Virus record (IMG/VR): IMGVR_UViG_3300032284_002783
Location: 1 to 64,000 of that record
Length of the DNA: 64,000 nt
From: a virus
Reading direction: 5' to 3' (one strand)
Shown here: piece after piece, positions 4,212 to 39,880 of the stretch
Layout of the letters: each line of letters starts with the position of its first letter
How positions within the stretch are numbered: position 1 is the first letter of the stretch
Translations under genes and position numbers: made by a program
Notes under the pieces: generated by a model
Databases searched by the model: none
What the model was told of the DNA's origin: nothing
What the model saw: only the letters and a program-made list of their open reading frames with translations

Positions 4212-5177
4212 TTACTGTAGAACGATTTCAACTCTACGGTTTTGTGGCTCACGAGCATTTGGTCCAGTCTGAACCATTAGTCCCTGTTCGCCCTTGCCAA
4301 CTACAGAAATTGCGCTGGCTGGTACGCCTTCAGCAACCAAAGCGTTCTTAACGCTGGTAGCTCTACGTAGGCTTAGTGCCATGTTATAGCTTTCTGGTCC
4401 ACTGGTGTCAGTGTGTCCTGTAGCAGTAATCTGAGCAGTGCCCTTTGAACGATATGCGCTAGCAGCTTGCTTGATTACATTCATGCCTGCGGCAGTGATG
4501 TTGCTCTTGTCCCAATCAAAGAATACCATAAAGCTGGTAGCTGCTGGTGCTGCTGCAACTGGCACTGGTGCCGGAGCCGGAGTATCAAACTTATATGTAA
4601 GGCTCAGCATAACGCCGATGTTGTTGTTAGTCCATTGTGCATTGTTTACACTAGGATTGGTAGTTCCGTAATAACGACCATCGAGATTAACACGAAGGTT
4701 TTCTGTTGCCTTATAACCTACACCGACAATGCCCTGATATGCAAGTGCAGTGCTGCTGAGAGGGCTGTTGCCGTCTACCAGAGCAAGACCTGCGCCTACA
4801 CCAGCATATGGGGTAATAATGCTGTCTGGCATAAAGTCATAAAGAGCATTTACCATAAATGCTAGCTGTCCGACCTGATTGCCAAGTGCAGTGTTTGGAA
4901 CGTTTACGTTAGTTGGATTGTAGCGATAAACAGTTTCGAACTCAACACGTGGTCCGACAAAGTCGTATCCGAACACGCCACCAACTGCCCAACCTGTCTG
5001 TGGTGTAACACCTACAACTGGAGCAGCCATTACGTTTGTATTAGCATTGAAATTGGTCATCCAATTAAGACCACCTTCAATGCCTGTATAAAATCCCTGA
5101 GTCTGAGCGTTAGCAGTCTGGGTCAAAACTAGACCAGCCACAGCGCAACCAAGGGCAAGCTTTAGTACTTTCTTCAT
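4212..5177 (-). CDS. OmpA-family outer-membrane protein (beta-barrel plus peptidoglycan-binding domain), 321 aa
   Basis: A Sec signal peptide (K-K near the start, hydrophobic core, A-N-A cleavage near residue 24) is followed by a roughly 180-residue beta-barrel-like region of alternating aromatic and polar strands. A Pro-Ala linker near residue 205 leads to a full OmpA C-terminal domain: T-A-T-G-H-T-D-T-S-G, S-L-R-R-A and N-R-R-V-E-I. The domain order is that of host OmpA porins. It stands alone, with a strong GGAAAGGAAG ribosome-binding site and its own terminator. A complete, exportable OmpA in a phage suggests envelope remodelling, receptor masking or superinfection exclusion (inference). 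It could be a recent host acquisition; codon choice was not measured. Confidence 0.88.
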   Translation of the reverse strand: MKKVLKLALGCAVAGLVLTQTANAQTQGFYTGIEGGLNWMTNFNANTNVMAAPVVGVTPQTGWAVGGVFGYDFVGPRVEFETVYRYNPTNVNVPNTALGNQVGQLAFMVNALYDFMPDSIITPYAGVGAGLALVDGNSPLSSTALAYQGIVGVGYKATENLRVNLDGRYYGTTNPSVNNAQWTNNNIGVMLSLTYKFDTPAPAPVPVAAAPAATSFMVFFDWDKSNITAAGMNVIKQAASAYRSKGTAQITATGHTDTSGPESYNMALSLRRATSVKNALVAEGVPASAISVVGKGEQGLMVQTGPNAREPQNRRVEIVLQ

Positions 5178-5268
5178 AATCTTCCTTTCCTGAAGTTAAA
5201 AACAATATATAGCTTAAACTAACTACAAATCAAACTAAATTATTGAATTCTAAATAGTTTTCCAAAAA

Positions 5269-5297
5269 TTGTATTTTTTTTGCAACACTCGTATAAT
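5269..5297 (+). promoter_or_regulatory. Sigma70-like promoter, leaderless type
   Basis: TTGTAT, 17 bases, TATAAT. The -10 box ends 8 bases before the desaturase ATG at 5306, so transcription should start at or next to the start codon. No ribosome-binding site is present. Confidence 0.65.
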
Positions 5298-5305
5298 TAG
5301 AGACT

Positions 5306-6061
5306 ATGATTAAATTCCATGCAACCCCCATCTCATTAAATTTGATACATCTAATTGCTACCATAGCCGGTATAGTATGGATATGTATCTCTCCATTTCA
5401 ATACATCAATTTGGTTTTCATATTCGTAGGCTATTTCCTCTTAGCCGGAGTTGGACACGAAATTTTTTATCACAGATATTTTTGTCATAAAAGTTTTGAA
5501 ACATATTTGCCTGTACAGTGGGTTGGACTTGTGTTAGGTGTGTTAGCCGGCCGAGGAAGTCCAACGGATTGGACAGCAATACATAGATATCATCATAAAT
5601 TTGCCGATAGTGATTTAGATCCACACAACCCGCGCAAGGAAAAATGGCGTGCATTTTTTCCTTATTTCTTTTTATATGATCAAAAAATTAATCCATTTAT
5701 TGTAAAAGATCTTTTGAAATCTCCTGTACAACGATTTATCAATAACTATTATAACTTGATTATTATATTGTTTGCAGTGTTATTTGCTGTGATAGATTTG
5801 AATTTATTTTTCTATCTATGGGTTATTCCCATGGCTATCACTGGTTGGATGATTTCTTTGGGAACTGTTCTTAGCCACACATACGGTTATAGAAATTTCA
5901 ACAGTAATGATAAATCGACTAATAACTTTATTATGAGCATTTTGTTATGGGGTCAAGGTTGGCATAACAATCATCATGCACAGCCAACAAGATGGGATTT
6001 AAGGATCAATTGGTGGGAAATAGATCCTTGTGCGTGGGTAATAAGATGTATTAAGCGCTAG
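5306..6061 (+). CDS. Membrane fatty-acid desaturase 1 (acyl-CoA desaturase-like), 251 aa
   Basis: Integral-membrane di-iron desaturase with the three histidine boxes: H-R-Y-F-C-H (56-61), H-R-Y-H-H (93-97) and H-N-N-H-H (220-224), separated by hydrophobic segments. Enzymes of this fold use O2 and two electrons to introduce a double bond or hydroxyl into an acyl chain. At 251 residues it is short, close to bacterial delta-9-type enzymes without a cytochrome b5 domain. It opens the unusual 5306-14650 cluster and has two paralogues there. The leaderless promoter suggests early expression. Substrate unknown; membrane phospholipid or acyl-CoA is inferred. Confidence 0.9.
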   Translation: MIKFHATPISLNLIHLIATIAGIVWICISPFQYINLVFIFVGYFLLAGVGHEIFYHRYFCHKSFETYLPVQWVGLVLGVLAGRGSPTDWTAIHRYHHKFADSDLDPHNPRKEKWRAFFPYFFLYDQKINPFIVKDLLKSPVQRFINNYYNLIIILFAVLFAVIDLNLFFYLWVIPMAITGWMISLGTVLSHTYGYRNFNSNDKSTNNFIMSILLWGQGWHNNHHAQPTRWDLRINWWEIDPCAWVIRCIKR

Positions 6062-6683
6062 TTGTAGTTGCTTGAGGCCAATTTGGATTATAACCATCTA
6101 CTAGATTTCTATATATTACGTACTGCTCTGTGTTTTGTATTAATGCTTTATAAGGTAGTGGAATAAATTCCCTATAAAATGTTGAGCTTAAACTACCAAA
6201 TAGAAAATATTTGTCTTTGATTTTTTCATACTTGCCCTGACGATTCATCGACATCATTACCCGCTTATTATATTCATTAAAAGTTAGCGCAAATACTTTT
6301 GCACCCTCTTTTTTAGCCCAGTCGATATGAATAGGCATTATGTGTTCTGCCACAACAATGCTTCCTCGATACTTTGGCATTTTCCATGCACGCACAGCAC
6401 CGATTACTACATTAGGATCAAACTCCGCTTTGTAAGATCCACTAGATGCTACAATTTCGTTGTTTTCATCATATAAAAAGCTAAAAATACCATTATCAGA
6501 TTTAAATCTATCAGTTTTTAGTAATAGATACAGCAAGGTGTTATTTTTGTTTTCCCAATCTGTGTATGCCATATTTGCACTGGCAGGTCGTTTGCTGTCC
6601 AATTCACATTTTTTACAGAATGAAAAAATGTCGTTTAATGTTTGATCATCGATGTTTTCAGGATCAACGGTTTTAACCTGCAT
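6051..6683 (-). CDS. GNAT-like acyltransferase, 210 aa
   Basis: The middle looks like a GNAT core: a strand with E-I-V-A-S-S-G-S-Y, then R-A-W-K-M-P-K-Y-R-G, a helix, a strand (A-K-V-F-A-L-T-F) and N-E-Y-N-K-R, as expected for the acetyl-CoA-binding beta4-alpha3 and the helix after beta5. The canonical Q/R-x-x-G-x-G/A loop is not clean, so the call is tentative. It overlaps the preceding PP-loop gene by 11 bases, so the two are probably co-translated, and converges on desaturase 1. Possible role: N-acylation of a product of the PP-loop enzyme (inference). Confidence 0.5.
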   Translation of the reverse strand: MQVKTVDPENIDDQTLNDIFSFCKKCELDSKRPASANMAYTDWENKNNTLLYLLLKTDRFKSDNGIFSFLYDENNEIVASSGSYKAEFDPNVVIGAVRAWKMPKYRGSIVVAEHIMPIHIDWAKKEGAKVFALTFNEYNKRVMMSMNRQGKYEKIKDKYFLFGSLSSTFYREFIPLPYKALIQNTEQYVIYRNLVDGYNPNWPQATTTSA

Positions 6684-7557
6684 TTGTGCCTTTCAATAAT
6701 TCCACTAATTGATTATATTCTATTTTGAAAACGCCGTCCATAGTTTTTCTTTTTTCTTTGAGAATTTGAATATTTGTAATTGAGTTAAAATCTTCTAACT
6801 TATCAATTTGTTCATAGCCGGTATATTTAGGTCTTTCTTCTAATTCAAACATTCTTGTATATACAGACCGGCGACTAGAAAAGGTTCCTAACTTTCCAGG
6901 TAATCTGTTGTTACCCAATTCAACAATAGTTGGATCTAATAAAAATGATAAAAAGGTTTCTGGTGTCCATGAATGAAAGGCACTGGTTCCTTTAAGTAAT
7001 CCTTTTTTGTAAAGATTGCCCCAGCCTTCCCAGGCTTCTTTTTGAGTGTAGTACCATAATCCGCTTGATAAATCTGGAGAAAGATATGGTTCTTCATTAC
7101 CACATAAAACACTGCCTTTTAAATCTAATGCTGCTTTCATTGTAGTAATATATTGATATGTACCAGAATTAGCCATTTCAGCAATTTCCAAAAATTCTCT
7201 GCTATTGACAAATTTATGAAAATCAATGTCTATAACCAATGGTTGCAGATTTCTTTTTTTACAATATCTAAACGCATGATCGAGATCGTGTTGGTTTAAT
7301 TGTGGATGAATGTTAACTATCACAGGAATTATTGGTAATTTGAGAGTTAAAAATGCTTCTAGCATTACTTCGCTGTCAATTCCTCCACTGTACAAAGCGT
7401 ACAAAGTACCTTCTCTGTTATTCCAAATCTCCTGGGCATTGATTAATAATTCTTCGCAATAAGTTTTTGGACTTCTACTCGTAGGAGATATTTCCAGACA
7501 AAAAGTCTCGGCTGTACCATGTGATTTTATAAAATTATTTTTTCGATATTCGATCAT
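6673..7557 (-). CDS. PP-loop ATP pyrophosphatase / adenylating enzyme 1, 294 aa
   Basis: The nucleotide-binding PP-loop reads Y-S-G-G-I-D-S-E, followed by a Rossmann-like alternation and N-x-H-D-L-D-H-A-F-x-Y-C-K-K-R-N. This is the adenine nucleotide alpha-hydrolase superfamily (QueC, asparagine synthetase, TilS and others), which activates a carboxyl or carbonyl as an acyl-adenylate. I chose the ATG at 7557 over the one at 7575 because an AGG lies 10 bases upstream. A clear paralogue is at 11305. No Zn-binding CXXC cluster as in QueC and no tRNA-binding domain is seen. Substrate unknown. Confidence 0.75.
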   Translation of the reverse strand: MIEYRKNNFIKSHGTAETFCLEISPTSRSPKTYCEELLINAQEIWNNREGTLYALYSGGIDSEVMLEAFLTLKLPIIPVIVNIHPQLNQHDLDHAFRYCKKRNLQPLVIDIDFHKFVNSREFLEIAEMANSGTYQYITTMKAALDLKGSVLCGNEEPYLSPDLSSGLWYYTQKEAWEGWGNLYKKGLLKGTSAFHSWTPETFLSFLLDPTIVELGNNRLPGKLGTFSSRRSVYTRMFELEERPKYTGYEQIDKLEDFNSITNIQILKEKRKTMDGVFKIEYNQLVELLKGTNAG

Positions 7558-7608
7558 TATTCTGCACCTGAACATTTATTTTATCATATGAAAGAGGATA
7601 TAATCAAC

Positions 7609-7636
7609 TTTACATTTTGATAGCGTGCTGTATAAT
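7609..7636 (+). promoter_or_regulatory. Sigma70-like promoter, leaderless type
   Basis: TTTACA, 16 bases, TATAAT, with the -10 box ending 7 bases before the ATG at 7644. It lies in the divergent gap between the PP-loop gene and the oxygenase-like gene. Confidence 0.65.
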
Positions 7637-7643
7637 TTTTAAT

Positions 7644-8216
7644 ATGAACGAAGAATTTATATTACCTTTTGATAAGGTTGCTATCAGTACCGAAGATGAA
7701 GCATATATCTATAACTTGTTAAAATCACATGACCAGTCAAAAGTGCTTGACTATCATGGATATCTACATCCAAAATTAACATTTAAAACTAAGTTCGCTC
7801 AGGAATTAAAAGCGTTTGGAGACACTATTGGTTTGAGATTAGCAGGAATTTACGCTTTTACGGCCAATGCAAATACCACAACCAGTATACACATCGATGG
7901 TAATATCGAGTCTGGACCGTTGCCTTGGAGAATATGTTGGTATTGCCGAGGAGATGCTGGCACATTAAGCTGGTATCCAACTGATTCAAATACAGTGTTT
8001 GATAATCATGTTGGTGCATACGTATTACCACGTACCATTGAACCAATTGCCTCAGTTAAGCTCAATATGAAAAGTGCTATCATACGCACTGAAATACCTC
8101 ATCTATTAGATTTATCAGGAACCACTGTAGATAGACTGACTATTACTGCTACATTTAAACCATATATAAGTTGGCAAGAATTAAGAGCTAGATTAAACAA
8201 TGTTAAGACTTGCTGA
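7644..8216 (+). CDS. Fe/2-oxoglutarate oxygenase-like (double-stranded beta-helix) protein, 190 aa
   Basis: T-S-I-H-I-D-G gives an H-x-D metal pair, followed by a strand-rich region with W-R-I-C-W-Y and a late R-L-T-I-T-A-T-F strand, a layout seen in Fe(II)/2OG hydroxylases. The distal His is not certain (candidate in I-P-H-L-L-D-L). The ATG at 7644 is preferred to a TTG 27 bases upstream because the TATAAT box lies between them. The end overlaps the GNAT-like gene by 17 bases. A hydroxylase acting on a cluster product is inferred. Confidence 0.5.
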   Translation: MNEEFILPFDKVAISTEDEAYIYNLLKSHDQSKVLDYHGYLHPKLTFKTKFAQELKAFGDTIGLRLAGIYAFTANANTTTSIHIDGNIESGPLPWRICWYCRGDAGTLSWYPTDSNTVFDNHVGAYVLPRTIEPIASVKLNMKSAIIRTEIPHLLDLSGTTVDRLTITATFKPYISWQELRARLNNVKTC

Positions 8217-8748
8217 TCAATCTGATTTCCAAAACATATATGATTTAATTAAATCAAAAACTAAAATTTTTGAATCGCCGTTTATTCCAGATAGCTTTGA
8301 TACTTTCTGCCGCAGATTACAAAGTGGCAACACAACTAGAATTTTTCTATCTTTCAATGATACCATTTTACAAGGTATATTGTTCACAAGATTAATCACC
8401 AATGTGATCCCAGCATGGTATTCGCATTTGATTGTAGTTAAAAACGGATTAACTTTGCGTACGAGTCATTCAGTACAAGCATCGCTGTATGATTCTGCAA
8501 TCGATTATTATGAACAAGAGAATATTAACATGTTTTTCTATGTTCAACCCATAAGATATGAAAAGCTATTGAACAATCCGGTGAGACAATTATCATCAAA
8601 GTTACAAGGATATTCTAGCGTTATAGTAGATAGTATTCCCGCCGGGGTTTCAAATGACTCAATTCTTATAAAAACACTATTACAAGATAGAACACCTGTT
8701 GTAGATGTTAGAGTAATTATGAAAGTAAAGAAGGATCAAATAATATGA
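8200..8748 (+). CDS. GNAT-like protein 2, 182 aa
   Basis: The start M-L-R-L-A-D-Q-S-D-F-Q-N-I-Y-D-L-I has the typical GNAT N-terminus (strand, then D/E-D-x-x-x-I helix), and the core strands follow (I-F-L-S-F-N-D and I-L-F-T-R). The acetyl-CoA pyrophosphate loop is poorly conserved. It overlaps the oxygenase-like gene by 17 bases and desaturase 2 by 4, so all three are on one message. Could be an N-acyltransferase or a degenerate relative. Confidence 0.45.
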   Translation: MLRLADQSDFQNIYDLIKSKTKIFESPFIPDSFDTFCRRLQSGNTTRIFLSFNDTILQGILFTRLITNVIPAWYSHLIVVKNGLTLRTSHSVQASLYDSAIDYYEQENINMFFYVQPIRYEKLLNNPVRQLSSKLQGYSSVIVDSIPAGVSNDSILIKTLLQDRTPVVDVRVIMKVKKDQII

Positions 8749-9521
8749 TTAATCCGCATTTTATTAAACTTACAATACCTGTACATTGCTTATTATTATT
8801 GTCGTTTTTTATGATACATTGGACAGTGTGGAACATAATTGGAATTCTAATTTTATGGACATTGATTGGCGGGTTTGGTGTAGCTGTAGGGTATCATAGA
8901 TTATTTGGTCATAGAAGTTTTAACACGCATCCTGTAATAGCTAAGATATTAGCTTATTTGGGATTACTAAGCGGAGACGGTAGTTTAATTTTTTGGGTAG
9001 CTTTACATATTGGCATTCATCACAAATATGCTGACAAAGAACAGGACCTACACTCTCCTATAAAGGGTTTATGGAGTTCATTTATCGGATGGCAGAGTAA
9101 AATAAACCAAAACACCATAAGCTTATTACCAGCTAGGGCATTATTAAAAGACAAGTACTATGTGTTTTTACATGATTATTACTACGTTATTTTTTGGTTA
9201 ACGTTCATTATATTGGCAGGCATTAGTTGGCAATTTGCACTAGGAATTTTTATTCCTGCTTCAATACTAAGTCATCATCAAGATAACTTAGTTAATGTGG
9301 GTGGTCATCTACGTAAAGCTGGATATAGGAATTTTGACATAAACGATAATTCAACTAATAATTGGTTTACAGGTTTATTTGTATGGGGTCAAGGTTGGCA
9401 TAATAATCATCATGCTAGACCAAATGATTCAAATTTTGGCGGTCAACAATGGTGGGAATTTGACAGCGCACATAGATTATTAATTCCTCTGATAAGGAGT
9501 AAAAATGAAAGTAATACTTAA
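8745..9521 (+). CDS. Membrane fatty-acid desaturase 2, 258 aa
   Basis: Paralogue of the 5306 gene with histidine boxes H-R-L-F-G-H, H-I-G-I-H-H and H-N-N-H-H, the last in G-Q-G-W-H-N-N-H-H-A-R-P. The second box has one residue more than the usual H-x-x-H-H of this subfamily (W-V-A-L-H-I-G-I-H-H-K against W-V-A-V-H-R-E-H-H-R in desaturase 3), which may alter substrate or regiochemistry. Four hydrophobic helices are expected. The 4-base ATGA overlap with the upstream gene and 17-base overlap downstream place it in the middle of an operon. Confidence 0.88.
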   Translation: MINPHFIKLTIPVHCLLLLSFFMIHWTVWNIIGILILWTLIGGFGVAVGYHRLFGHRSFNTHPVIAKILAYLGLLSGDGSLIFWVALHIGIHHKYADKEQDLHSPIKGLWSSFIGWQSKINQNTISLLPARALLKDKYYVFLHDYYYVIFWLTFIILAGISWQFALGIFIPASILSHHQDNLVNVGGHLRKAGYRNFDINDNSTNNWFTGLFVWGQGWHNNHHARPNDSNFGGQQWWEFDSAHRLLIPLIRSKNESNT

Positions 9522-10881
9522 ACAAAATTGGAACTCAACAGTATCTGGGTCATATAAGATTTATACTATAGGTATTGATACAGAAAAAGTTCTTAGTAAT
9601 ATTACAAATCTACCGCAATGGGTTTCCACTGTAACATCACGCTTTGCAGTTATCGTACTTGATAATGATGAAATAACATTTGCTGCCGTAGATCATCTAT
9701 CAAATTATCCATTGTATTATTCTGATACATTTATCACTGATAATTGGTTTTATGTAGATTCAAATCGTTTGGAATTTACAGAGAATAAAGTTGTATCAAA
9801 GGAGACATGGCTGTTAGCTGGACAAAATTTATCAGCAGATACTTGCTTCAATGAAGTAAAAAGAATAATGCCAAATCATTATCTAAAACAGCAAAAACAA
9901 TATCAGTATAGATGGATGAATAGGTTGCCATATGCCAAAGATAATATACGAGATTTTATCGTAAACAAGTTTCTTGAATTGGAACAGACAGATAATACAT
10001 TAATGTTTAGCGGTGGCGTTGATAGTGTATTCTTAATGAATCTTGTTGTGAAGTATGGAACAAAAAATTGGCGTTTTATTCACATGCACAGCGACAGCGA
10101 TTTTCATAATGAAACTGCTGCGGTTGAATATTTTGAAAAATTTTATAATGTAAAGGTAGAAAAATACAACATCGATAACACTCATCTTTTAACCAGTTCA
10201 CAGATAGATAAAATTAATTACCTAGAAAAACAAACTAATTTTCCTAACTATTGGTATCATGACGAGTTGTATGGGAAATTCATTATGTTTGAAATGGCCT
10301 CGGTAAAAAATGAATTAATTTGGACGGGTGAAGTTGCAGATCAACTATTTGGCAATCCTAAAATCAATGCGTTAGTACCAACATGGCTACAAACTAAGAA
10401 CTCCGATGCAATTGCCGATCTTTGGATTGATACAACCAGATCATTAGTAAAGAGTTGGATCAGTGATGTAAACAAAAATCATGTGATCAAACAAAAGTTA
10501 AATGATCAAAGCGACGGCATATACTGGCAGACAGCATATGATAATATAAAGCGGGATCTAATTAGAATATTAGAAGAAGGGAATATTGAAGATATTGTTG
10601 TGCGTTTCACTAACTACAATTATTTGATTAAAGGACAGTTACGTGTTTGGCCATATTCTCAATTGCCAATGTACAATTTTTGTAACTTGTTTACACACTA
10701 TGAACTTGCTCCAATGGTGTTCAGTTTATCTTCAAACGAGCTGGCACCAAATTCTCTTTTTAAAGGATACCTATATAATTTGTTTCCCAATGATCTACCC
10801 ATTTATGCATGGGAACTTCCTAAAACGGGACCAACTCAAAAAATTAAAAGGCTTTATGATGAATTTATCAGTAAATTTTAA
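9505..10881 (+). CDS. Asparagine-synthetase-like ligase lacking the glutaminase Cys, 458 aa
   Basis: Two-domain layout of AsnB. Residues 1 to about 130 match the Ntn glutaminase fold (R-F-A-V-I-V-L-D, then A-V-D-H-L-S-N-Y-P-L-Y-Y-S, then I-M-P-N-H-Y-L). The C-terminal domain has the PP-loop F-S-G-G-V-D-S near residue 170 and G-E-V-A-D-Q-L-F-G. The protein starts M-K-V, without the catalytic Cys2, so it cannot release ammonia from glutamine. Cys-less AsnB relatives include beta-lactam and carbapenam synthetases, which form amide bonds from another amine. Here it lies between desaturase 2 and a second PP-loop enzyme, so an adenylating amide ligase is inferred. An RBS (AAGGAG) precedes the ATG. 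Confidence 0.75.
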   Translation: MKVILKQNWNSTVSGSYKIYTIGIDTEKVLSNITNLPQWVSTVTSRFAVIVLDNDEITFAAVDHLSNYPLYYSDTFITDNWFYVDSNRLEFTENKVVSKETWLLAGQNLSADTCFNEVKRIMPNHYLKQQKQYQYRWMNRLPYAKDNIRDFIVNKFLELEQTDNTLMFSGGVDSVFLMNLVVKYGTKNWRFIHMHSDSDFHNETAAVEYFEKFYNVKVEKYNIDNTHLLTSSQIDKINYLEKQTNFPNYWYHDELYGKFIMFEMASVKNELIWTGEVADQLFGNPKINALVPTWLQTKNSDAIADLWIDTTRSLVKSWISDVNKNHVIKQKLNDQSDGIYWQTAYDNIKRDLIRILEEGNIEDIVVRFTNYNYLIKGQLRVWPYSQLPMYNFCNLFTHYELAPMVFSLSSNELAPNSLFKGYLYNLFPNDLPIYAWELPKTGPTQKIKRLYDEFISKF

Positions 10882-11299
10882 ATCAATAAAATTCAATAAC
10901 ATAGTAATAGTTTCTAATAGAGCTGCATATGACTGGTATATGCAAAACTTTTTTCCATATTACAGCCAGGTATGGCTTTATTGTGTTGAACCAAATGTAA
11001 TAGATGACGAGTTGTCGTCAGAGTTGAAAAATCAAATTGAGAACAACGAATCTATAAATGTAATTATTTTTGGAATTCAAAACTATACCAAATTTAACAG
11101 AATTAGAACACAGAAAATATTAGTGATGGACAATATAATAATGAAATCAAAATTGTTGAATATGATTAATAGAAGTATAGTTGAAATTATTTCAGGATAC
11201 TGTCAACAATGGTTTAATATAGACAGAATTCCAAATAAAGAAATTTGGACAAATAGCTCATTGTCTAAAAAAGGCGATATATATACGTTGTTAGGATAA
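10856..11299 (+). CDS. Unknown Rossmann-like protein, 147 aa
   Basis: The frame is open further upstream, but the ATG pair at 10856/10859 has an AAAGG 5-8 bases before it and only a 26-base overlap with the ligase. The N-terminus N-N-I-V-I-V-S-N-R-A-A and two further beta strands (V-W-L-Y-C-V and N-V-I-I-F-G-I) suggest an alpha/beta sandwich. No catalytic motif recognised. It is always-in-operon with the flanking ligase and PP-loop genes, so a partner or carrier role is possible. Confidence 0.6.
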   Translation: MMNLSVNFKSIKFNNIVIVSNRAAYDWYMQNFFPYYSQVWLYCVEPNVIDDELSSELKNQIENNESINVIIFGIQNYTKFNRIRTQKILVMDNIIMKSKLLNMINRSIVEIISGYCQQWFNIDRIPNKEIWTNSSLSKKGDIYTLLG

Positions 11300-11304
11300 A
11301 CAAT

Positions 11305-12159
11305 ATGACAGCATGTACATGGACTTTTGGAGAACATGGATTTTATTTTAAACCACTAACAAGATTTCCAGAGATATGGAAACAAGAAGTTTATAATACG
11401 GCCAAACTTATTAGAAATAACACAGATAGAAAAATCTTTGTTTGCATGAGCGGCGGCATTGATAGCGAGATAGTTGCCAGATCTTTTTATGATCAAGATA
11501 TTGATTTTTCAGCTGTAATTTTAGAATATGATAATGAACTTAATACGCATGATATATCTTATGCTAAGAATTTTTGTCAGCAAAGGAACATAAAAACTCA
11601 TATCATAAAAATAAATTTGATAAACTTTATTGAATTAGACATCCCTAATTATATCAAATCTGGATATTATGCAACAAATATTTTTAGATTTATTCAACGT
11701 CGATTAATTGAGGAAGTTGAATTGTTAAATGGATGTGCAGTTTTAGGCGGCGGCGAACAAATATTTGTTGGACATAATAATGAAGTATGTTTAACCAAGT
11801 CACTTGATGCATGGTCCTCCGTTCAATTTGCACAAGAGCTACATACTAATCATTGCGTTGAATTTTTTATGCATAATCCGGAGATACAGTATGCATGGAT
11901 GTGCGAACCAATTATAGAGATAATGACCGCTAATTCAGAATATTATCCTGTTGATTTAAAGATGAGTATAGAGAAAATAATCATTTATCATAGATACTGG
12001 AATGAGATGATTCATAGAAAGAAATATTCAGGCTATGAGAAAATACAATCGTTTAGAGAACAAGTTGAAAAAAAATTGAAAACACAGTTTACAAATTTGA
12101 TCCAATATCACATTCCAATATCTAAAATTAAAAACGATCTTTTGAAAAATCTTAATTAA
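11305..12159 (+). CDS. PP-loop ATP pyrophosphatase / adenylating enzyme 2, 284 aa
   Basis: M-S-G-G-I-D-S-E is the PP-loop, near residue 52. Later N-T-H-D-I-S-Y-A-K-N-F-C-Q-Q-R-N and K-Y-S-G-Y-E-K-I closely parallel the enzyme at 6673-7557 (N-Q-H-D, C-K-K-R-N, K-Y-T-G-Y-E-Q-I), so the two are paralogues with about the same length. The reaction is expected to be ATP-dependent adenylation of a carboxyl or carbonyl group. It follows the unknown gene by 5 bases and closes this operon against a convergent minus-strand gene. Confidence 0.75.
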   Translation: MTACTWTFGEHGFYFKPLTRFPEIWKQEVYNTAKLIRNNTDRKIFVCMSGGIDSEIVARSFYDQDIDFSAVILEYDNELNTHDISYAKNFCQQRNIKTHIIKINLINFIELDIPNYIKSGYYATNIFRFIQRRLIEEVELLNGCAVLGGGEQIFVGHNNEVCLTKSLDAWSSVQFAQELHTNHCVEFFMHNPEIQYAWMCEPIIEIMTANSEYYPVDLKMSIEKIIIYHRYWNEMIHRKKYSGYEKIQSFREQVEKKLKTQFTNLIQYHIPISKIKNDLLKNLN

Positions 12160-12533
12160 AGAAGAGTTATGTTTGAGCCGTTTAATTCGTTAGGATCAAA
12201 TTGGTTAGATTTCCATGTAACCGTCCAACCGTTTGCTCTGAATTTATCAAAAATAGTAGCATCGTTATCGGCATAGAATGTATCGCCGGCTTGTTTGTCG
12301 CTCCACACCCGATGAAAAGACACTGTTTGTTCATCGGGTCGAGTAATAAATGAAACAACTGTTAAGCTGCTTGCTCCGTCAACTCTCTGAGCATAATCAG
12401 TTCCAGCTGTTGCAATATCTTGCATAGCCTTAATTTCTTTTCTAAAATCAGCTAAACCAGCCGGTGTCAAGGGCGTAGATAACCCTTCTTTTGAATAAGA
12501 AATAATGTATTCTTGTAAATTAGCAGTTGTCAT
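12156..12533 (-). CDS. Phage hypothetical protein, 125 aa
   Basis: Soluble protein without a recognised domain; it has a helical N-terminus and a strand-rich second half (F-H-R-V-W-S-D-K and W-T-V-T-W-K-S-N). A GGAG element lies 7 bases upstream and late-type TATAAATA is 54 bases upstream, so it is probably a late gene inserted in the enzyme cluster in the opposite direction. It overlaps the PP-loop gene by 4 bases at their 3' ends. Function unknown. Confidence 0.6.
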   Translation of the reverse strand: MTTANLQEYIISYSKEGLSTPLTPAGLADFRKEIKAMQDIATAGTDYAQRVDGASSLTVVSFITRPDEQTVSFHRVWSDKQAGDTFYADNDATIFDKFRANGWTVTWKSNQFDPNELNGSNITLL

Positions 12534-12558
12534 TTAAATCTCCGTAGGATGGTATATT

Positions 12559-12587
12559 TTGATATATTTATTAAGTCGTAATATAAT
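12559..12587 (+). promoter_or_regulatory. Sigma70-like promoter, leaderless type
   Basis: TTGATA, 17 bases, TATAAT, with exactly 6 bases between the -10 box and the ATG at 12594. The start is therefore predicted at the 5' end of the mRNA. Confidence 0.65.
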
Positions 12588-12594
12588 ATTTATA
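12587..12594 (-). promoter_or_regulatory. T4-type late promoter box
   Basis: TATAAATA on the minus strand, 54 bases from the start of the gene at 12533. It overlaps the opposing leaderless promoter of the cupin gene, so the two could exclude each other. Confidence 0.45.
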
Positions 12595-13229
12595 TGTTTA
12601 TTTTTGATCTCAATAAAAAAGACGATGCATTTAAGTGCCAATTCTTATTCAAAGAAACAGAGTTTACAATTCATAGCTTATCCTATGATCCCAGTCCAAT
12701 TAAGCAATCTTGCTATGTAATTGGATATGTTGAGAGCTTACATGCACATGGTTGCGTACTGGAGCACAAAAATGTTGCAGGATCCTTTGTAGATGTAGAA
12801 GCTATTTCAGGTACAGGATTCTATATTACCAGCAGAAGTGATTGCGAATTTACAAGGTTTGCTGAGCCAAATATTCATGCAGAAGGAGCACTAAAATATA
12901 TAGATGGCTGTAGTAATACTGAGCTAATATCTCCGGTTAAAGTTGGTTTACCGACTGTAAACTACTTACATGTTCCTAGCAATACCACCCAAACATCTCA
13001 TATACACAAAAGCGCCAGAGTTGGTTGGATAGCCAAAGGTAATGGCTATGCCGTAACTGACACAGATAGGCACGTTTTATCAGAAAATATTATGTTTTTC
13101 CTTCCGGCATATGAAAATCATTATTTTGAAACCAAGCAGGATTCATTGTCTATAATTGTTTTTCATCCCGATTCTGACATTGGCCCGACCGACGAAAACA
13201 ATAATATGAAGGTAAGAACTCACATATAA
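12594..13229 (+). CDS. Cupin-domain protein, 211 aa
   Basis: The second half shows a cupin: T-S-H-I-H-K-S-A-R-V-G-W-I-A-K-G-N-G (motif 1 with H-x-H) and later F-L-P-A-Y-E-N-H-Y-F-E (motif 2). The N-terminal half is also strand-rich and may be a second, degenerate barrel. Cupins bind a metal and act as oxygenases, isomerases or ligand sensors. It starts the second half of the desaturase cluster and is followed by desaturase 3 after 8 bases. Substrate unknown. Confidence 0.65.
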   Translation: MFIFDLNKKDDAFKCQFLFKETEFTIHSLSYDPSPIKQSCYVIGYVESLHAHGCVLEHKNVAGSFVDVEAISGTGFYITSRSDCEFTRFAEPNIHAEGALKYIDGCSNTELISPVKVGLPTVNYLHVPSNTTQTSHIHKSARVGWIAKGNGYAVTDTDRHVLSENIMFFLPAYENHYFETKQDSLSIIVFHPDSDIGPTDENNNMKVRTHI

Positions 13230-13237
13230 ATAATTTT

Positions 13238-14002
13238 ATGTCTATAAAATCACTTGTTCGATCAAATACAATTTATTTGCCCTGGTTACAAATAATTCTC
13301 TCTGCGTTGGCTATTATTGGGGTATGCGTTTTTCCATCAGTTGGAATGTTCTGCATAAGTTTGGTCTTGTATGCCTTAATTGGTTGTTTCGGCATAAGCA
13401 TAGGCTATCATAGATACCTTAGTCACAAATCCTTTACATTTAAGAAATCATGGCTACAATGGCCTTGTATCTTTTTAGGATGCTTAGCTGGCACCGGTAG
13501 TCCTATAGGGTGGGTAGCAGTACACAGAGAGCATCACAGACATAGTGATCGTACCGGAGATCCGCATAGTCCTCATACAATAGGATATAAGAGTCTTCTA
13601 GCAAATTATCAGTATGAATGGAATAAATGGCCAATTAGAGATTTGATTAGCAATCCAACTCATAGATTTATACACGATTACTATTTTATTTTATTAGCAG
13701 TCTGGATAATAGCATGGGCTATTATTGGACTGCCGTTTTTGATATATGTTGTAATTTTACCGATGGTGTTGGCTATTTGGGCAAGTACTATTTCAAATTA
13801 CATCAATCATAAATTTGGTTATAAAAATTACAAAACTATCGACGAAAGTAGAAACTGCTGGTACACAGCATTATTAACTTTTGGCGAGGGCTGGCATAAC
13901 AACCATCATGCTAGACCAAAGAGTTACAGATTTGGTCAAAATTGGTGGGAACTTGATCTTGGTGCTTTTTTAATAGAAAGATTTTTTGCCCGTGATCTTT
14001 AA
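13238..14002 (+). CDS. Membrane fatty-acid desaturase 3, 254 aa
   Basis: Third paralogue, with boxes H-R-Y-L-S-H, H-R-E-H-H and H-N-N-H-H (W-H-N-N-H-H-A-R-P-K). W-V-A-V-H-R-E-H-H-R-H-S-D is typical of stearoyl-CoA-type bacterial desaturases. Hydrophobic segments flank the boxes as expected for a four-helix membrane enzyme. It is followed with overlap by an aspartyl-hydroxylase-like gene, so desaturation and hydroxylation are probably linked. Confidence 0.9.
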   Translation: MSIKSLVRSNTIYLPWLQIILSALAIIGVCVFPSVGMFCISLVLYALIGCFGISIGYHRYLSHKSFTFKKSWLQWPCIFLGCLAGTGSPIGWVAVHREHHRHSDRTGDPHSPHTIGYKSLLANYQYEWNKWPIRDLISNPTHRFIHDYYFILLAVWIIAWAIIGLPFLIYVVILPMVLAIWASTISNYINHKFGYKNYKTIDESRNCWYTALLTFGEGWHNNHHARPKSYRFGQNWWELDLGAFLIERFFARDL

Positions 14003-14501
14003 AACCAACCTTCAAATTGATTTGCCAAGACTGGTTAAAGATTTATCTCGCTATATTGATGTCTTCGACCAATTTAATCAATTATCTATTGTATATGATG
14101 AAAATAGATTGGTAGAAAATATCGAACCACATTATGTTGCTATCGGCAAAAGTCCACCAGACATTGATCAATGGAATCTTAACAAAATTTGTCCTTTATT
14201 TGCAAATAGTTATTTTGCGGAAATATTTGATCTAGTTCCATATAAGAAGCAACGTGCTAGAATAATGAGAATGGCACCTCGTAGCACATACAGTATGCAT
14301 GTTGATTCATATAAACGTTTGCATTGGGCTTTAATAACAGATCCTAGCTGTCATTTAACTTTTCAAAATAATGAACAATTTTTTGGTTGGCATATTCCGG
14401 CCAACGGTTTTGCATATCTTGTTGATACCAGAAAGATGCACTCTGCAGTAAATCCCTGGGATCAATATAGATATCATTTTGTTATTGATATAAAGGATTA
14501 A
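13986..14501 (+). CDS. Aspartyl/asparaginyl beta-hydroxylase-like oxygenase, 171 aa
   Basis: M-H-V-D-S gives the H-x-D pair and K-M-H-S-A-V-N the distal His. The pattern (H-x-D, L-H-W-A-L-I-T-D, then V-D-T-R-K-M-H-S-A-V-N and R-Y-H-F-V-I-D-I) is that of the Asp/Asn beta-hydroxylase (2OG, Fe(II)) fold. It overlaps desaturase 3 by 17 bases. The start is uncertain: TTG at 13986 has GAAAG close upstream, and GTG at 13992 is the alternative. Hydroxylation of an amino-acid or acyl moiety is inferred. Confidence 0.7.
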   Translation: MPVIFKTNLQIDLPRLVKDLSRYIDVFDQFNQLSIVYDENRLVENIEPHYVAIGKSPPDIDQWNLNKICPLFANSYFAEIFDLVPYKKQRARIMRMAPRSTYSMHVDSYKRLHWALITDPSCHLTFQNNEQFFGWHIPANGFAYLVDTRKMHSAVNPWDQYRYHFVIDIKD

Positions 14502-14503
14502 AC

Positions 14504-14650
14504 ATGAAACTACTAGTATTTCTTATATTATTGGCAATTTTGTTTGTTCTGTTTCCAGCTAAAGTTTTAGCAGCTATAATTTTAATTAGTTCTGGATTTT
14601 TATCGCTGGCTATTTTGGTATTTGTGCTAATTGCTTGTCTTCTTGGATAA
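14504..14650 (+). CDS. Small two-helix membrane protein, 48 aa
   Basis: M-K-L-L-V-F-L-I-L-L-A-I-L-F-V-L-F-P then a short polar turn and a second hydrophobic stretch ending C-L-L-G. An AAGGA lies 6 bases before the ATG, inside the end of the previous gene. Probably the last gene of the desaturase operon. Function unknown; it could be a membrane partner of the desaturase or a holin-like peptide. Confidence 0.6.
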   Translation: MKLLVFLILLAILFVLFPAKVLAAIILISSGFLSLAILVFVLIACLLG

Positions 14651-14660
14651 TAAAAAAAAT

Positions 14661-14881
14661 GTGCATGTGGTGATTTTGCATCTTCGGTTCAGTTGCGAAC
14701 GATAGACATCAAACAGCTTGCCATGCTTACTTCTATCTGGCCATTATTTCAGACCTGCGCTTTTTCCCAATCACCTCAGGGAAGAACCATAAGACATGAG
14801 CTAGACTCTATACATGCTGTGTGTATGGTTTTCCAATGCTCATCCGGCTTCTTCCTTACCGCGCTGGATTTTAACATGCAC
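14661..14881. ncRNA. Structured RNA candidate, about 220 nt
   Basis: No gene can be supported between 14651 and 15064. The first and last 8 bases pair perfectly (GTGCATGT with ACATGCAC), and an internal stem pairs GGAA-g-AACCATA near 14776 with TATGGTTTTCC near 14824. It is visibly richer in G and C than its surroundings. The strand is not certain: on the plus strand it would follow the 48-aa gene. I do not recognise a class; group I intron core sequences are not seen. Confidence 0.5.
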
Positions 14882-15009
14882 TATGATTTCAGCGTCTATG
14901 TTCACAGCAACATGTCAACTTACGTCATGCTTTATACTAGCAAATGTTAACTGATCAGTCTAGCGGATTTGTTTGAAATAATTATGTCAAAATATTAATA
15001 AATAATAAT

Positions 15010-15039
15010 GCAGTTCGCGGAATTGGCGTTCCCAACTGC
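15010..15039 (+). promoter_or_regulatory. 5' leader hairpin before homing endonuclease
   Basis: GCAGTT pairs with AACTGC, with an inner GGAA/TTCC, 26 bases before the endonuclease ATG. AGGAG follows 10 bases after the hairpin. Leader hairpins that limit early translation are known for phage homing endonucleases; that role is inferred here. Confidence 0.5.
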
Positions 15040-15064
15040 TCTATAACTCAGGAGAATTACAGCA

Positions 15065-15625
15065 ATGTCTAATATTTATTATGTATATGCATATATAAGA
15101 ACTAAAAACTCAGCAACTGCTAACGCAGGTACACCATATTATATTGGTAAAGGTAAAAATCGTCGTGCATGGGAAAAGCATATAGTACCACGGCCAATAG
15201 ACAAAAATTATATAGTTATTGTGGAATCAAATTTAACTGAAGTTGGCGCACTTGCATTAGAGCGCAGATTAATAAAATGGTATGGCGGGAAAGATTTAGA
15301 AACAGGTATATTACTTAATAGGACAGATGGCGGCGATGGCGGATCTAATATTGTTTATGAAAGGACATTAGAGCATAAACAGAATCTGTCAAATGCATTG
15401 AAAGGCAAACCAAAATCTAATGAAATGAAAAAGAAATTGTCCATTACAAACACAGGACGAAAACTATCAGAATCTACGAGGAAGAAAATATCAGAGAATA
15501 ACAAAAACAGGGTATTATCTGACGAAGTATTAGCTAAGCTTAAAATGCCAAGATCTGATGATATAAAAAGAAAAATATCAGAGTCGGTTAAAAACTCTTA
15601 TCGTTTAAGAAGATTAAAACACTGA
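15065..15625 (+). CDS. GIY-YIG homing endonuclease with NUMOD-type repeats, 186 aa
   Basis: The N-terminal GIY-YIG nuclease domain reads Y-Y-V-Y-A-Y-I-R, then [13 protein letters not shown], with the catalytic Glu in [11 protein letters not shown]. The C-terminal third contains NUMOD3-type DNA-binding repeats (L-S-N-A-L-K-G-K-P and further K-K-L/K-K-I-S units). Free-standing enzymes of this type (Seg-like) spread into intergenic positions of phage genomes. It sits between two structured RNAs and is on the opposite strand to the giant RNA. Confidence 0.85.
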
Positions 15626-15659
15626 GATTACATGTTTTACATTAGTACCTTGAGGATTA

Positions 15660-16529
15660 TTATGAGTCTTGCGAACTCGTTTCCCTCAACATCCACTGTC
15701 CCCTCATATTGTGAGACAGTCTACTAACAATGTCGCCTTTTTTAAGGTCAGGCAGTAGACCTTTCATGCAGTGCTACTCTACAACTTTTGCACCGTTAGC
15801 CTTGCGAGCTATTCGAGAGCGCTAACCCTCTACGACACATCTGTTACAGACCAACTCCACCTTGCGAGTTTTGTTGGGCTTGGTTCTCTTACGAGCCAAG
15901 CATTAGACATCTTTCACACTACACAGGGCCAGGCTTTGCGTTTTTGTAATCGAAAGTTGGACTTGAACCAACATACGACTGCTTGGAATGCAGTTGCCTA
16001 AACCATTCGGCTATATCGTTTGAACCTACTGTGATGTGCTGGCCCTGTTGCTGCATACCTTGTTAGATACACAATACAACACACCACCTGTATTTCGTCT
16101 TGCAGACTACTTTACCGTTTACCTGGACACTGTCTAGCCTTACGAGCTAGCCAATCCCCTCAAAACTGCCAACCGCCCTTGGCTGCAAAGCCTCGAACTT
16201 GTTTGACTATCCATTATCTATCAGCATTCTGTTGGTTTGCGTGCAAAGGTGATACTTGCGGTATCTTACTCCTCACCGATTGGCTCTGGAGCACATCCTT
16301 TCGGACCTTTACCCAACTGTCCTGCTTACCACCCCTTTCGGATGGCTCCTTTCGGAGCAGACTGGACTTGCATAGTGGACCCTATTGCTAGGTGCTGGTA
16401 GGTAGGCCTTCCAGCTTTGGGTCAGTTGCCTGACTTATTCCATTAATGGCGCTATGCCGCCAATGCTTATTTTACATTTTATAGAACAAAAACTTTGCAC
16501 ATTCGCTTGCGCTTGTGTGCGCCGTCTAT
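15660..16529 (-). ncRNA. Giant ornate structured RNA, GOLLD-like candidate (about 870 nt)
   Basis: Minus-strand RNA with at least eight hairpins capped by GNRA tetraloops. Loop GAAA occurs at 16329-16345, 16345-16358 and 16295-16307. Loop GCAA occurs at 16251-16265, 16097-16107, 15795-15826 and 15664-15678. Loop GTAA occurs at 16134-16150 and near 15880-15900. TCCACT (16374-16379) pairs with AGTGGA (15692-15697) and could close the fold. A tRNA-like element is embedded in the middle. A strong promoter (TTGACA, 17, TATATT) sits at 16536-16564. Size, phage location, GNRA richness and embedded tRNA fit the GOLLD class (or the related ROOL class); the assignment is from memory of those classes. 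The 3' end is not defined by a terminator. Confidence 0.72.
15949..16020 (-). tRNA. tRNA-Gly(UCC)-like element inside the giant RNA
   Basis: The T-arm is perfect (GTTGG-TTCAAGT-CCAAC) and the anticodon arm is perfect (ACTGC, loop A-T-T-C-C-A-A, GCAGT), giving anticodon UCC. A D-arm (GCC...GGC) is present. The acceptor stem has only 5 of 7 pairs (AACGATA with TTTCGAT) and CCA is not encoded. It is either a divergent tRNA that must be processed from the surrounding RNA or a tRNA-like domain of it. Confidence 0.55.
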
Positions 16530-16535
16530 GTAGCT

Positions 16536-16564
16536 AATATACAGAGCTTGACCAGCGCTGTCAA
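16536..16564 (-). promoter_or_regulatory. Strong sigma70-like promoter of the giant RNA
   Basis: TTGACA, 17 bases, TATATT on the minus strand, which places the RNA start near 16529. It is among the best consensus promoters in the window and points into the structured-RNA region. Confidence 0.65.
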
Positions 16565-16624
16565 CAGCATTTTTTGATTTTTTTTAATTATTGCTGTCTT
16601 TTTTAAAAAATAGTAAAAACAGCT

Positions 16625-17155
16625 ATGAAAACTAAGTGGGAAATAAGCCTTGCACAAGGTGAATGGTTTGAGGATAATGTCGCATTGCCCTGGTTGTATG
16701 CAAATTTTCCACAATGGTGGATTACGGATTGCAGGCTAGAGAAAAAGTCACAATTTGGTGGTCCAAAAATGCGTACTGCAAATCAAGTATTAACACTGCC
16801 CGATTTTAGATTGGATAATGCAGAAACCAATCAAACTATTTGGATTGATGCCAAATATAAGACTAAGTCTTATAAGCTAGATGATTATCCGGGCGATTAC
16901 TTTACTACAATAGACCCAAGAAGCTATCAAGAATACATGGATTTTATGAAAGTTTGGCCTAACTCAGATTTTTTGATTTTGTTTGGAAAACGAACTACTA
17001 AACTACTTTATATAATGAATCTAAAAACAGCCAAGCCTGTTATGCATTGGTATAATAATGAGCATGTTACAATGGGTAGAAATAGTGTTCCATGTTTTTC
17101 AGAGCGGTATCTAGACCCGGTTGGATCTTGGAATCCAACCCTAATGCCATACTAA
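16625..17155 (+). CDS. PD-(D/E)XK nuclease-like protein, 176 aa
   Basis: L-P-D-F-R-L-D-N is followed about 12 residues later by I-W-I-D-A-K-Y-K, the P-D...D-x-K arrangement of the restriction-endonuclease fold, around residues 59-80. Many aromatic residues follow. No partner methylase or specificity protein is nearby. It converges on the minus-strand small-protein array with a 4-base overlap. Could be a phage endonuclease for host DNA degradation or an inactive relative; cleavage activity is inferred from the motif only. Confidence 0.55.
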   Translation: MKTKWEISLAQGEWFEDNVALPWLYANFPQWWITDCRLEKKSQFGGPKMRTANQVLTLPDFRLDNAETNQTIWIDAKYKTKSYKLDDYPGDYFTTIDPRSYQEYMDFMKVWPNSDFLILFGKRTTKLLYIMNLKTAKPVMHWYNNEHVTMGRNSVPCFSERYLDPVGSWNPTLMPY

Positions 17156-17370
17156 AAGTTATCCCACACCAGCCGCCACATTGTATATTGTTCTTTGTTT
17201 TCAAATTTGAATAATACTTGATCCTTATTGGGTTTAATAGAAGGACAGTTATCATCAAACCATTGGTCTATGTCAGACCAATTTGTTTCCCACCAATCCC
17301 AGTTGAGAACTATTGCGTAATATGGGCCTTCATCTTGTTGATTGTTGTATACTGCTAATTTTGTAGTCAT
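17152..17370 (-). CDS. Small W/E-D-F-L-W family protein, 72 aa
   Basis: Last gene of the minus-strand array. It ends F-K-F-E-N-K-E-Q-Y-T-M-W-R-L-V-W-D-N-F, a variant of the shared C-terminal signature with Q for D and W for F. The centre has D-Q-W-F-D-D-N-C. Its ATG overlaps the stop of the upstream gene in a CATGA context, indicating coupled translation. Function unknown. Confidence 0.65.
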   Translation of the reverse strand: MTTKLAVYNNQQDEGPYYAIVLNWDWWETNWSDIDQWFDDNCPSIKPNKDQVLFKFENKEQYTMWRLVWDNF

Positions 17371-17600
17371 GAATGTCTCAACAAAAATAAAATATAATCT
17401 TCTTTGCTGTTAAAGTCTATGTGTGCTCCTAGACCATATGCATATTCTCCATAAACAGCGTTATATTCTTTTAATGCAAGATTCACGGTCTCTTCATTTA
17501 AGACCGCATACGGTTGCTGTTGTAATAGACAGCGGAAAAAATTAGATATATGTGGCTTTGAGTGCATAACCAATACGCTTATAGGAACGCGATAGGTCAT
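17367..17600 (-). CDS. Small family protein, 77 aa
   Basis: Ends H-I-D-F-N-S-K-E-D-Y-I-L-F-L-L-R-H-S, with H where other members have W. The ATG at 17600 is preferred to an upstream GTG because it overlaps the previous stop (TCATGA), as at the other junctions of this array. Function unknown. Confidence 0.6.
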   Translation of the reverse strand: MTYRVPISVLVMHSKPHISNFFRCLLQQQPYAVLNEETVNLALKEYNAVYGEYAYGLGAHIDFNSKEDYILFLLRHS

Positions 17601-18535: not shown

Positions 18536-19408
18536 ATGTGTGTTATAGCAGTGAAATATCTACCAGAAATTGGTTGGATAGGTGTAAAAAATAGAGATCG
18601 CGGATATTATCCAGAAATCAATATACGTAAAAGTACCAAGCATGGCATTGAACGCTGCTATATCTGGGATGCAAATACCAAGTATACAGAAGGTGTAAAC
18701 GAGCACGGCGTTAGTATTATATCGGCTAGCATGGCCACTATTAGTGATGAAAAAGGTGCAGGAACCACTACACACGAAGGTACAAATAAAAATTATATGA
18801 GTCCAGATGGTAAAAAGATTCGCACCGCGCTTTTAGAAAAAACCTGTAAATCTGCATTGGAATGCTTGGTTGAAAAAGAACTTACAGGACATACGTTTGT
18901 TTTTAATGAGAACGAATGCTACATTCTTGAGAGTGGTTACAGAAACGGAACGTTTGTTTATAAGATACAGGAAATACAACCTAATCAAGTCTGCGTTAGA
19001 ACTAATCACGGAATACTGTTGCCATGGGCAGGATATCAACGTGTGCAGACAGATCCTTCGCATAGTCGTAAACGTGTTAGCAGCGAAGTACGTAAGATTA
19101 AAAGTGAACTAGGTATGATTCCTAGCAAAACTGTAAAAGAAGCACTTAACAGTATTATGGATCACAGTGAGCCTAATCCTCAACTTAATCCCTGCAGAAT
19201 AGATGACAGAGATGGTTATATGAAAACCACTGGACAAATAGCTATAGTTCCAAAACATAGAAAACTATATTATCGTCCAATTTGGAGTGCCTTAGAAGTT
19301 GATTTTAATAAAATCAATCACGGGCATAGTAAAACATTTTTTGAAGTAATTGATGTGCCAGCTGATACAGCTAAAGCCAGTGCTAAATTAAAAATTGCAA
19401 AAAGTTAG
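18536..19408 (+). CDS. Ntn-hydrolase (choloylglycine hydrolase / C45-like), 290 aa
   Basis: I start the gene at 18536 so that the protein begins M-C-V-I-A-V. Removal of Met exposes Cys as the N-terminal nucleophile, and K-N-R-D-R-G about 20 residues on is the usual Asn-Arg-Asp pair. T-E-G-V-N-E-H-G-V-S-I-I-S-A-S-M follows, as in C59/C45 Ntn hydrolases that cleave non-peptide amide bonds (bile salts, penicillin V, N-acyl amino acids, acyl-homoserine lactones). A longer frame with ATG at 18521 would bury the Cys. Substrate unknown; an N-acyl amide would fit the nearby acyl-modifying cluster. Confidence 0.72.
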   Translation: MCVIAVKYLPEIGWIGVKNRDRGYYPEINIRKSTKHGIERCYIWDANTKYTEGVNEHGVSIISASMATISDEKGAGTTTHEGTNKNYMSPDGKKIRTALLEKTCKSALECLVEKELTGHTFVFNENECYILESGYRNGTFVYKIQEIQPNQVCVRTNHGILLPWAGYQRVQTDPSHSRKRVSSEVRKIKSELGMIPSKTVKEALNSIMDHSEPNPQLNPCRIDDRDGYMKTTGQIAIVPKHRKLYYRPIWSALEVDFNKINHGHSKTFFEVIDVPADTAKASAKLKIAKS

Positions 19409-34532: not shown

Positions 34533-34538
34533 TTGCAT

Positions 34539-39709: not shown

Positions 39710-39877
39710 ATGGGCAAACCAAATTTTATAAAAGGTAAGACCGCATGGAACAAAGGAAAAAATAATCCTAATGCTGCCGAAAACGGTAAAAAAGGAGCAT
39801 TATTACAATCTATCAAGGTCATTGGTCGAAAACGAAAATATAATGATGACGGTACATGGTCATGGTATTACCCATAA
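39710..39877 (+). CDS. Small protein or homing-endonuclease remnant, 55 aa
   Basis: Reads M-G-K-P-N-F-I-K-G-K-T-A-W-N-K-G-K-N-N-P then a basic tail ending W-S-W-Y-Y-P. K-T-A-W-N-K-G-K resembles the linkers in HNH/GIY-YIG homing enzymes. The frame is open upstream to 39644 without an ATG, so it may be the tail of a decayed gene. A terminator follows. Confidence 0.4.
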   Translation: MGKPNFIKGKTAWNKGKNNPNAAENGKKGALLQSIKVIGRKRKYNDDGTWSWYYP

Positions 39878-39880
39878 TAA

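Follow-up and report, generated by a model that had tools for sequence, protein, structure and literature searches.

The 64,000-nucleotide stretch analysed here (the window) comprises positions 1 to 64,000 of the IMG/VR virus record IMGVR_UViG_3300032284_002783, which is 76,657 bases long and probably incomplete. The source is a large uncultured T4-like phage, and the T4-type functions encoded in the window comprise the topoisomerase II large subunit, a DnaB-like helicase, and baseplate and head proteins; NrdA is encoded as well. Our subject is an island at 5306-14650, in which three membrane desaturases lie among GNAT-like proteins, PP-loop proteins and oxygenases. The initial annotation, made from the letters alone, had taken these genes for a pathway that makes an acylated small molecule or lipid. 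The gene set was found to be linked, to recur in many uncultured phages in varying combinations, and to have intact active sites. The island contains the following open reading frames (ORFs):

5306-6061 (+): desaturase 1, membrane di-iron fatty acid desaturase family; PF00487 80.3 bits, three intact His boxes HRYFCH/HRYHH/HNNHH
6051-6683 (-): GNAT1, N-acyltransferase-fold protein of a phage-specific family; AlphaFold, Foldseek, recurrence
6673-7575 (-): PP-loop protein 1, ATP pyrophosphatase superfamily; SGGIDS, family profile, AlphaFold
7617-8216 (+): oxy1, probable 2-oxoglutarate (2OG)/Fe(II) oxygenase of the recurring family hyd4; likely start ATG at 7644
8200-8748 (+): GNAT-B, second GNAT-like protein; iterated profile family
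8745-9521 (+): desaturase 2; PF00487 61.2 bits, HRLFGH/HIGIHH/HNNHH
9505-10881 (+): AsnB-like protein without Cys2 (asparagine synthetase/beta-lactam synthetase-like); SGGVDS, TIGR01536
10868-11299 (+): 143-amino-acid ORF; ORF only, no Pfam match, no counterpart in relatives
11305-12159 (+): PP-loop protein 2, paralogue of PP-loop protein 1; QueC E 1.6e-5, family profile 236 bits
12156-12533 (-): 125-amino-acid ORF; no Pfam, PHROG or locus match
12594-13229 (+): cupin protein; AraC_binding/Cupin_2 match
13238-14002 (+): desaturase 3; PF00487 68.9 bits, HRYLSH/HREHH/HNNHH
13986-14501 (+): oxy2, Asp/Asn beta-hydroxylase-like 2OG/Fe(II) oxygenase; PF05118 27.2 bits
14504-14650 (+): 48-amino-acid hydrophobic ORF; ORF list only, no known family

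None of the expected catalytic motifs is missing: each desaturase has its three His boxes, the three PP-loop-type proteins have SGGxDS, and both oxygenases have the H-x-D...H...R signature. Neither frameshifts nor missing active-site residues were seen in the island genes. The ORF coordinates give overlaps of 11, 11, 17, 4, 17, 14, 4 and 17 bases, in agreement with the 4- to 17-base overlaps noticed initially. The GC content of the island is 33.2%, compared with 36.1-38.2% in all other 9.2-kb stretches downstream, as expected for a horizontally gained plastic region.

Scans of IMG/VR with desaturase 1 alone or with the PP-loop pair gave no match, whereas profiles based on relatives succeeded. 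A four-sequence desaturase alignment detected at least 545 relatives, of which the best 79 loci were fetched; clustering of their ORFs into families revealed that island families surround these desaturases. Reciprocal scans yielded 65 GNAT1-centred and 80 PP-loop-centred loci. The queries of these two scans were closer subsets, the full family alignments being too divergent for the pattern scan. Merging of overlapping contigs left 110 distinct loci, and the counts given here use matches of at least 40 bits.

A desaturase was found within 10 kb, often adjacent, in 62 of the 65 GNAT1-centred and 66 of the 80 PP-loop-centred loci. The nearest desaturase in non-redundant GNAT1 loci was less than 1 kb away in 32/52 and absent in 3/52, and desaturase density dropped steadily with distance from GNAT1. 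Conversely, the GNAT1 family was present in 41 of the 79 desaturase-centred loci. Ninety-eight of the 110 distinct loci had a desaturase, and 57 had two or more in the fetched flanks. Desaturase, PP-loop and GNAT1 occurred jointly in 46 distinct loci, 43 of which also had a 2OG-type oxygenase. When 54 desaturase-anchored loci were scored, PP-loop and GNAT1 gave a co-occurrence of 26:4:3:21 (p 4e-8) and PP-loop and GNAT-B co-occurred likewise far above independence, with the proviso that related loci are not independent events. Ten of the 13 larger island ORFs belong to families recurring jointly in uncultured phages; the AsnB-like protein and two small ORFs have so far been seen in this phage only. 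Whether the same gene set occurs in other phages was the check proposed with the initial annotation, and the reciprocal scans answer it strongly in the affirmative. Such recurrent joint occurrence in many phages indicates that the genes probably form a working pathway rather than a collection of stray genes.

As a control, 17 relatives were collected with this phage's topoisomerase. A desaturase was present in only one of them, a 518-kb contig, while many of the other 16 relatives are short fragments; this lone desaturase again has a GNAT and 2OG oxygenases in its vicinity. In a collection of 50,697 phage records, the PP-loop and GNAT1 queries had no match, and the desaturase query matched only Pelagibacter phage Mosig EXVC030M (MT647606), besides two bacterial-looking records. 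The matches in 'Acinetobacter phage MD-2021a' (CAKLQH020000002.1, CAKLQF020000003.1) were set aside: CAKLQH020000002.1, which was inspected, looks bacterial, with trp genes, accD and btuB around the desaturase.

Gene order and strand differ between phages, and membership of the set is modular. Some relatives add genes assigned by Pfam to acyl carrier protein (ACP), holo-ACP synthase (AcpS, a 4'-phosphopantetheinyl transferase), ketoacyl synthase, short-chain dehydrogenase/reductase (SDR), P450, Rieske oxygenase and FA_hydroxylase. In one locus (L038, island at 4218-17582), GNAT1, ACP, PP-loop, GNAT and desaturase genes are consecutive on one strand, and this run is followed within about 12 kb by an SDR, two more desaturases, a B12 radical SAM protein, a second PP-loop protein, a protein of another PP-loop family (PPL9) and a P450. 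An S-adenosylmethionine (AdoMet) decarboxylase family (f73; PF02675, speH-like) recurs inside desaturase islands of related loci, for example at L011:7006-7368. An arginase/agmatinase-like ORF is located in the window at 40815-41699 (-). The AdoMet decarboxylase in related loci and the arginase-like ORF hint at polyamine metabolism, and a polyamine as the acceptor is no more than a possible lead.

All three desaturases, which the initial annotation had named as such, exceed the PF00487 cut-off of 29.7 bits. Their closest structures by sequence are those of stearoyl-CoA desaturase, and all are of the membrane acyl-CoA/acyl-lipid type. By these matches they are ordinary PF00487 members, predicted to act on a fatty acyl substrate. 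Desaturase 1 shares 50% identity with a phage homologue in IMG/VR (L006). Neighbouring desaturases are divergent, with a median tree distance about that of random pairs. They belong to different clades, and particular pairings recur: clade 0 was paired with clade 1 in 21 of 82 pairs and with clade 4 in 11 of 82, against about 3 and about 1.5, respectively, expected from clade sizes. An origin as recent tandem copies was therefore rejected. The conserved side-by-side position of non-equivalent desaturases suggests sequential or complementary steps.

GNAT1 had no match in the Pfam search. Its AlphaFold model has the GNAT fold (predicted local distance difference test, pLDDT, 90), and Foldseek aligned it with GNAT acetyltransferases (E 1e-6), so the first of the two GNAT-like proteins originally proposed is confirmed at the level of the fold. 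The second, GNAT-B, belongs to a GNAT-like family other than that of GNAT1, and its GNAT nature is weakly suggested by profile matches, which are weak and mostly to acetyltransferases; one of 18 members had a Pfam match. The iterated profile found this family in 116 of the fetched loci and scored GNAT-B itself at 112 bits after its inclusion. It is present in 51 of the 110 distinct loci, adjoining a desaturase in 29 and a PP-loop gene in 20, and in several phages it is fused to a putative oxygenase, hyd5 (e.g. L024:10759-11934).

The two PP-loop proteins are paralogues, as was claimed from the outset, with 28% identity and SGGIDS in both. The family profile matches structures of NadE, QueC and TtuA, and the profile and model matches also include LarE and beta-lactam synthetase. 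The AlphaFold model of PP-loop protein 1 has a pLDDT of 94.5; the highest query-normalised template-modelling (TM) score among the matches listed was that to beta-lactam synthetase (PDB 1mc1), from which the PP-loop proteins differ in lacking the N-terminal domain, the score being only 0.44. In a scan of 84,980 GTDB genomes the family had ten matches, mostly weak. The best was to a 335-kb 'Marinimicrobia' contig (L231, binned as Candidatus Neomarinimicrobiota), which carries the same phage-type island beside a tail-fibre gene and is probably a phage contig within a metagenome-assembled genome. The family is thus nearly virus-only. PP-loop matches of 17-19 bits in close relatives were read as TilS, the frames being TilS-sized and this phage having a TilS-like ORF. 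Genes of the PPL9 family (about 400 amino acids; no Pfam or PDB match) lie next to one for a TctC-type periplasmic binding protein in 19 distinct phage loci, for example at L019:14206-16319.

The AsnB-like protein contains SGGVDS. Its TIGR01536 match is distant (E 3.7e-10; 39 bits, cut-off 267), and GATase_7 was matched at E 0.0038. The N-terminus reads MKVIL, so the Cys2 that defines glutamine-dependent AsnB is absent, as the initial annotation had stated; in this absence the protein, too, can be likened to beta-lactam synthetase. No relatives of it were found among phage records.

Both oxygenases had been recognised by an H-x-D motif, and both have the fuller H-x-D...H...R signature. Oxy2 matches PF05118 with 27.2 bits (cut-off 22.6), and H105, D107, H152 and R162 are invariant in its family. 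The oxy1 family has the same signature: H83-x-D85, H153 and R164 are the sole invariant columns of a 33-member alignment (profile E 7e-12). Oxy1 has no Pfam match, and another family member matches PF05118 below the cut-off. The nearest PDB structure to oxy2, matched by its family profile at E 1e-24, is Cpz10 of the caprazamycin pathway (PDB 7v4f; PMC9814697). The cupin, which was correctly called, belongs to a family found in six of the 110 distinct loci, all six with desaturase and PP-loop.

PF00487 enzymes catalyse acyl-chain desaturation or other oxidation, H-x-D...H...R enzymes hydroxylate with 2-oxoglutarate, GNATs transfer acyl groups to amines, and PP-loop enzymes activate their substrates with ATP, releasing pyrophosphate. 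We propose, with moderate confidence, that the locus is a horizontally assembled biosynthetic island encoding a phage pathway in which an acyl chain is desaturated, oxidised and coupled to an amine. Some relatives encode their own ACP; there is none in the window, so the acyl donor here would have to be host ACP, CoA or lipid. At least two non-equivalent di-iron desaturases and the 2OG/Fe(II) oxygenases would modify the chain, the GNAT-fold enzymes would move the acyl group to an amine, and the PP-loop and AsnB-like enzymes would adenylate a carboxylate to give an amide (or a nitrile or thio group). The enzymes would thus act on one product, presumably a small molecule or lipid of the acyl-amide type, unsaturated and hydroxylated and produced in the course of infection, which might change the host membrane or act on rivals or superinfecting phages. 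Support comes from the reciprocal scans with three anchors, co-occurrence, adjacency, clade pairing, the GNAT-B fusion, the consecutive run in L038, the Pfam-assigned ACP, AcpS, ketoacyl synthase, P450, SDR and Rieske genes of relatives, and the near virus-only distribution of the PP-loop family. Oxy2 adds to this, its nearest relative of known structure being the beta-hydroxylase in the synthesis of a nucleoside antibiotic.

Several observations weigh against this proposal. The GNAT1 and PP-loop queries were derived from desaturase-linked members, which biases the reciprocal scans toward linked loci. No ACP, ketoacyl synthase or AcpS was found in the 76.7-kb (probably partial) record, ACP is present in a minority of relatives only, and none of the genes was recognised as a thioesterase, ligase or exporter of a known acyl pathway. 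GNAT1 deviates from the usual Q/R-x-x-G-x-G/A donor loop, which makes its donor uncertain, and sequence cannot reveal the substrate specificity of the desaturases, PP-loop proteins and oxygenases. The initial annotation is supported only in part. Linkage argues for a pathway instead of random cargo, and the ACP, holo-ACP synthase and ketoacyl synthase within relatives' clusters agree with an acylated product, while the product itself, the substrates and the order of the steps are what we infer.

Remodelling of host membrane lipids is an unlikely alternative, in which the desaturases would raise fluidity, and the GNAT, the PF05118 hydroxylase and the di-iron enzymes would make or modify an amino-acid-containing lipid, aiding replication or blocking superinfection. 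OlsB, OlsC and OlsE of ornithine lipids offer a functional parallel, although ornithine lipid synthesis has no known role for a PP-loop enzyme. The acyl-CoA/acyl-lipid type of all the desaturases fits this explanation, and PF04116 fatty-acid-hydroxylase genes occur in 17 of the 110 loci, always alongside PP-loop and desaturase; however, no glycerolipid acyltransferase was recognised, and the many oxygenase types, the B12 radical SAM protein and the P450 exceed the needs of membrane fluidity. An increase in fluidity has been proposed for viral desaturases (PMC7300359).

We regard it as distinctly improbable that the island modifies a macromolecule, be it a peptide (ribosomally synthesised and post-translationally modified or fatty-acylated), lipid A, a glycan of the cell surface or the tail fibres of the phage itself. 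SPASM and B12 radical SAM genes frequently occur nearby, and tail-fibre genes often border the island, but the SPASM-type radical SAM family goes with the fibre gene and not with the PP-loop/GNAT core. The Mosig counterpart adjoins sugar and radical SAM genes, and the corresponding pelagimyophage hypervariable region is tied to host recognition (PMC7029224); yet no recurring precursor-peptide-like small ORF was recognised, and the ACP, AcpS and ketoacyl synthase of relatives indicate acyl chemistry. Independent auxiliary genes, each useful alone, piling up in one hypervariable region would explain the varying order and strand, the modular membership and the lack of the island in most close relatives (sampled as fragments), and radical SAM cassettes have been described in hypervariable islands (PMC7029224), but this is the least probable explanation and is disfavoured by the specific co-occurrence, adjacency, clade pairing, gene fusions and ACP-containing gene run.

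Phage metabolic genes are usually read singly, as borrowed host enzymes. If the acyl-amide pathway proposed above is real, phages run their own acyl chemistry in infection, with virus-specific enzyme families and, in some cases, ACP, ketoacyl synthase and P450 as well, and the product could modify the membranes of the host, exclude competing phages or work extracellularly. More tentatively, such islands may constitute a phage-specific, diversified class of biosynthetic clusters, with virus-only PP-loop and GNAT families and sometimes their own ACP, that make dedicated acyl-amide specialised metabolites during infection. The clusters provide a concrete list of enzymes for expression and testing.

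Other features of the window were noted. Near the right edge of the island, a NUMOD3-motif ORF (15065-15625, +) is probably a homing endonuclease. An IscU-like iron-sulphur scaffold protein (19712-21154, -) is seemingly split by an in-frame intein with an inserted domain, and an IscA-like gene (19405-19800) adjoins it. A transfer-messenger RNA is encoded at 39854-40251 (-); it carries the ARAGORN asterisk (possibly permuted) and has the tag AANDNAPFLQAVA. ORFs resembling translation factor IF-3, ClpX and TilS are also present (22429-24245 and 33537-34538, -).

Bacterial polyyne and acyl-ACP desaturase clusters bring together ACP, P450 and several membrane desaturases that are not equivalent, along with a fatty acyl-AMP ligase and a thioesterase. 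The island shares the several non-equivalent desaturases; the ligase and thioesterase were not recognised, and the window has no ACP. No phage link to polyynes was found in the searched literature. Among phages, Mosig resembles the island in that its desaturase is flanked by two Asp_Arg_Hydrox (OXY2) genes, and hyd4 and a distant relative of GNAT1 lie in the same stretch of about 6 kb; it differs in having a single desaturase, no PP-loop family member, and sugar and radical SAM neighbours. Freshwater T4-like pelagimyophages PMP-D (fonsimyophages) carry fabF, stearoyl-CoA desaturase, speH, a 2OG/Fe(II) oxygenase and an Asp/Asn beta-hydroxylase; the available sections of PMC7029224 report them as separate lipid and polyamine genes and describe no PP-loop/GNAT/desaturase module. 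Desaturases of the same PF00487 family are known from viruses in Arctic brines (PMC7300359) and from cyanophages (Roitman 2018, as cited in PMC11480375 and PMC7300359), and the available parts of these sources describe them as single genes for membrane fluidity. The initial annotation knew of no phage system of this kind. Its parts, namely single phage desaturases and fabF with desaturase and speH, had already been reported; the searched literature, which excludes most subscription papers, yielded no linked PP-loop/GNAT/desaturase/oxygenase module, an absence that is not proof. There is a realistic chance that the module represents a distinct class of phage biosynthetic cluster within the phage auxiliary biosynthetic genes.

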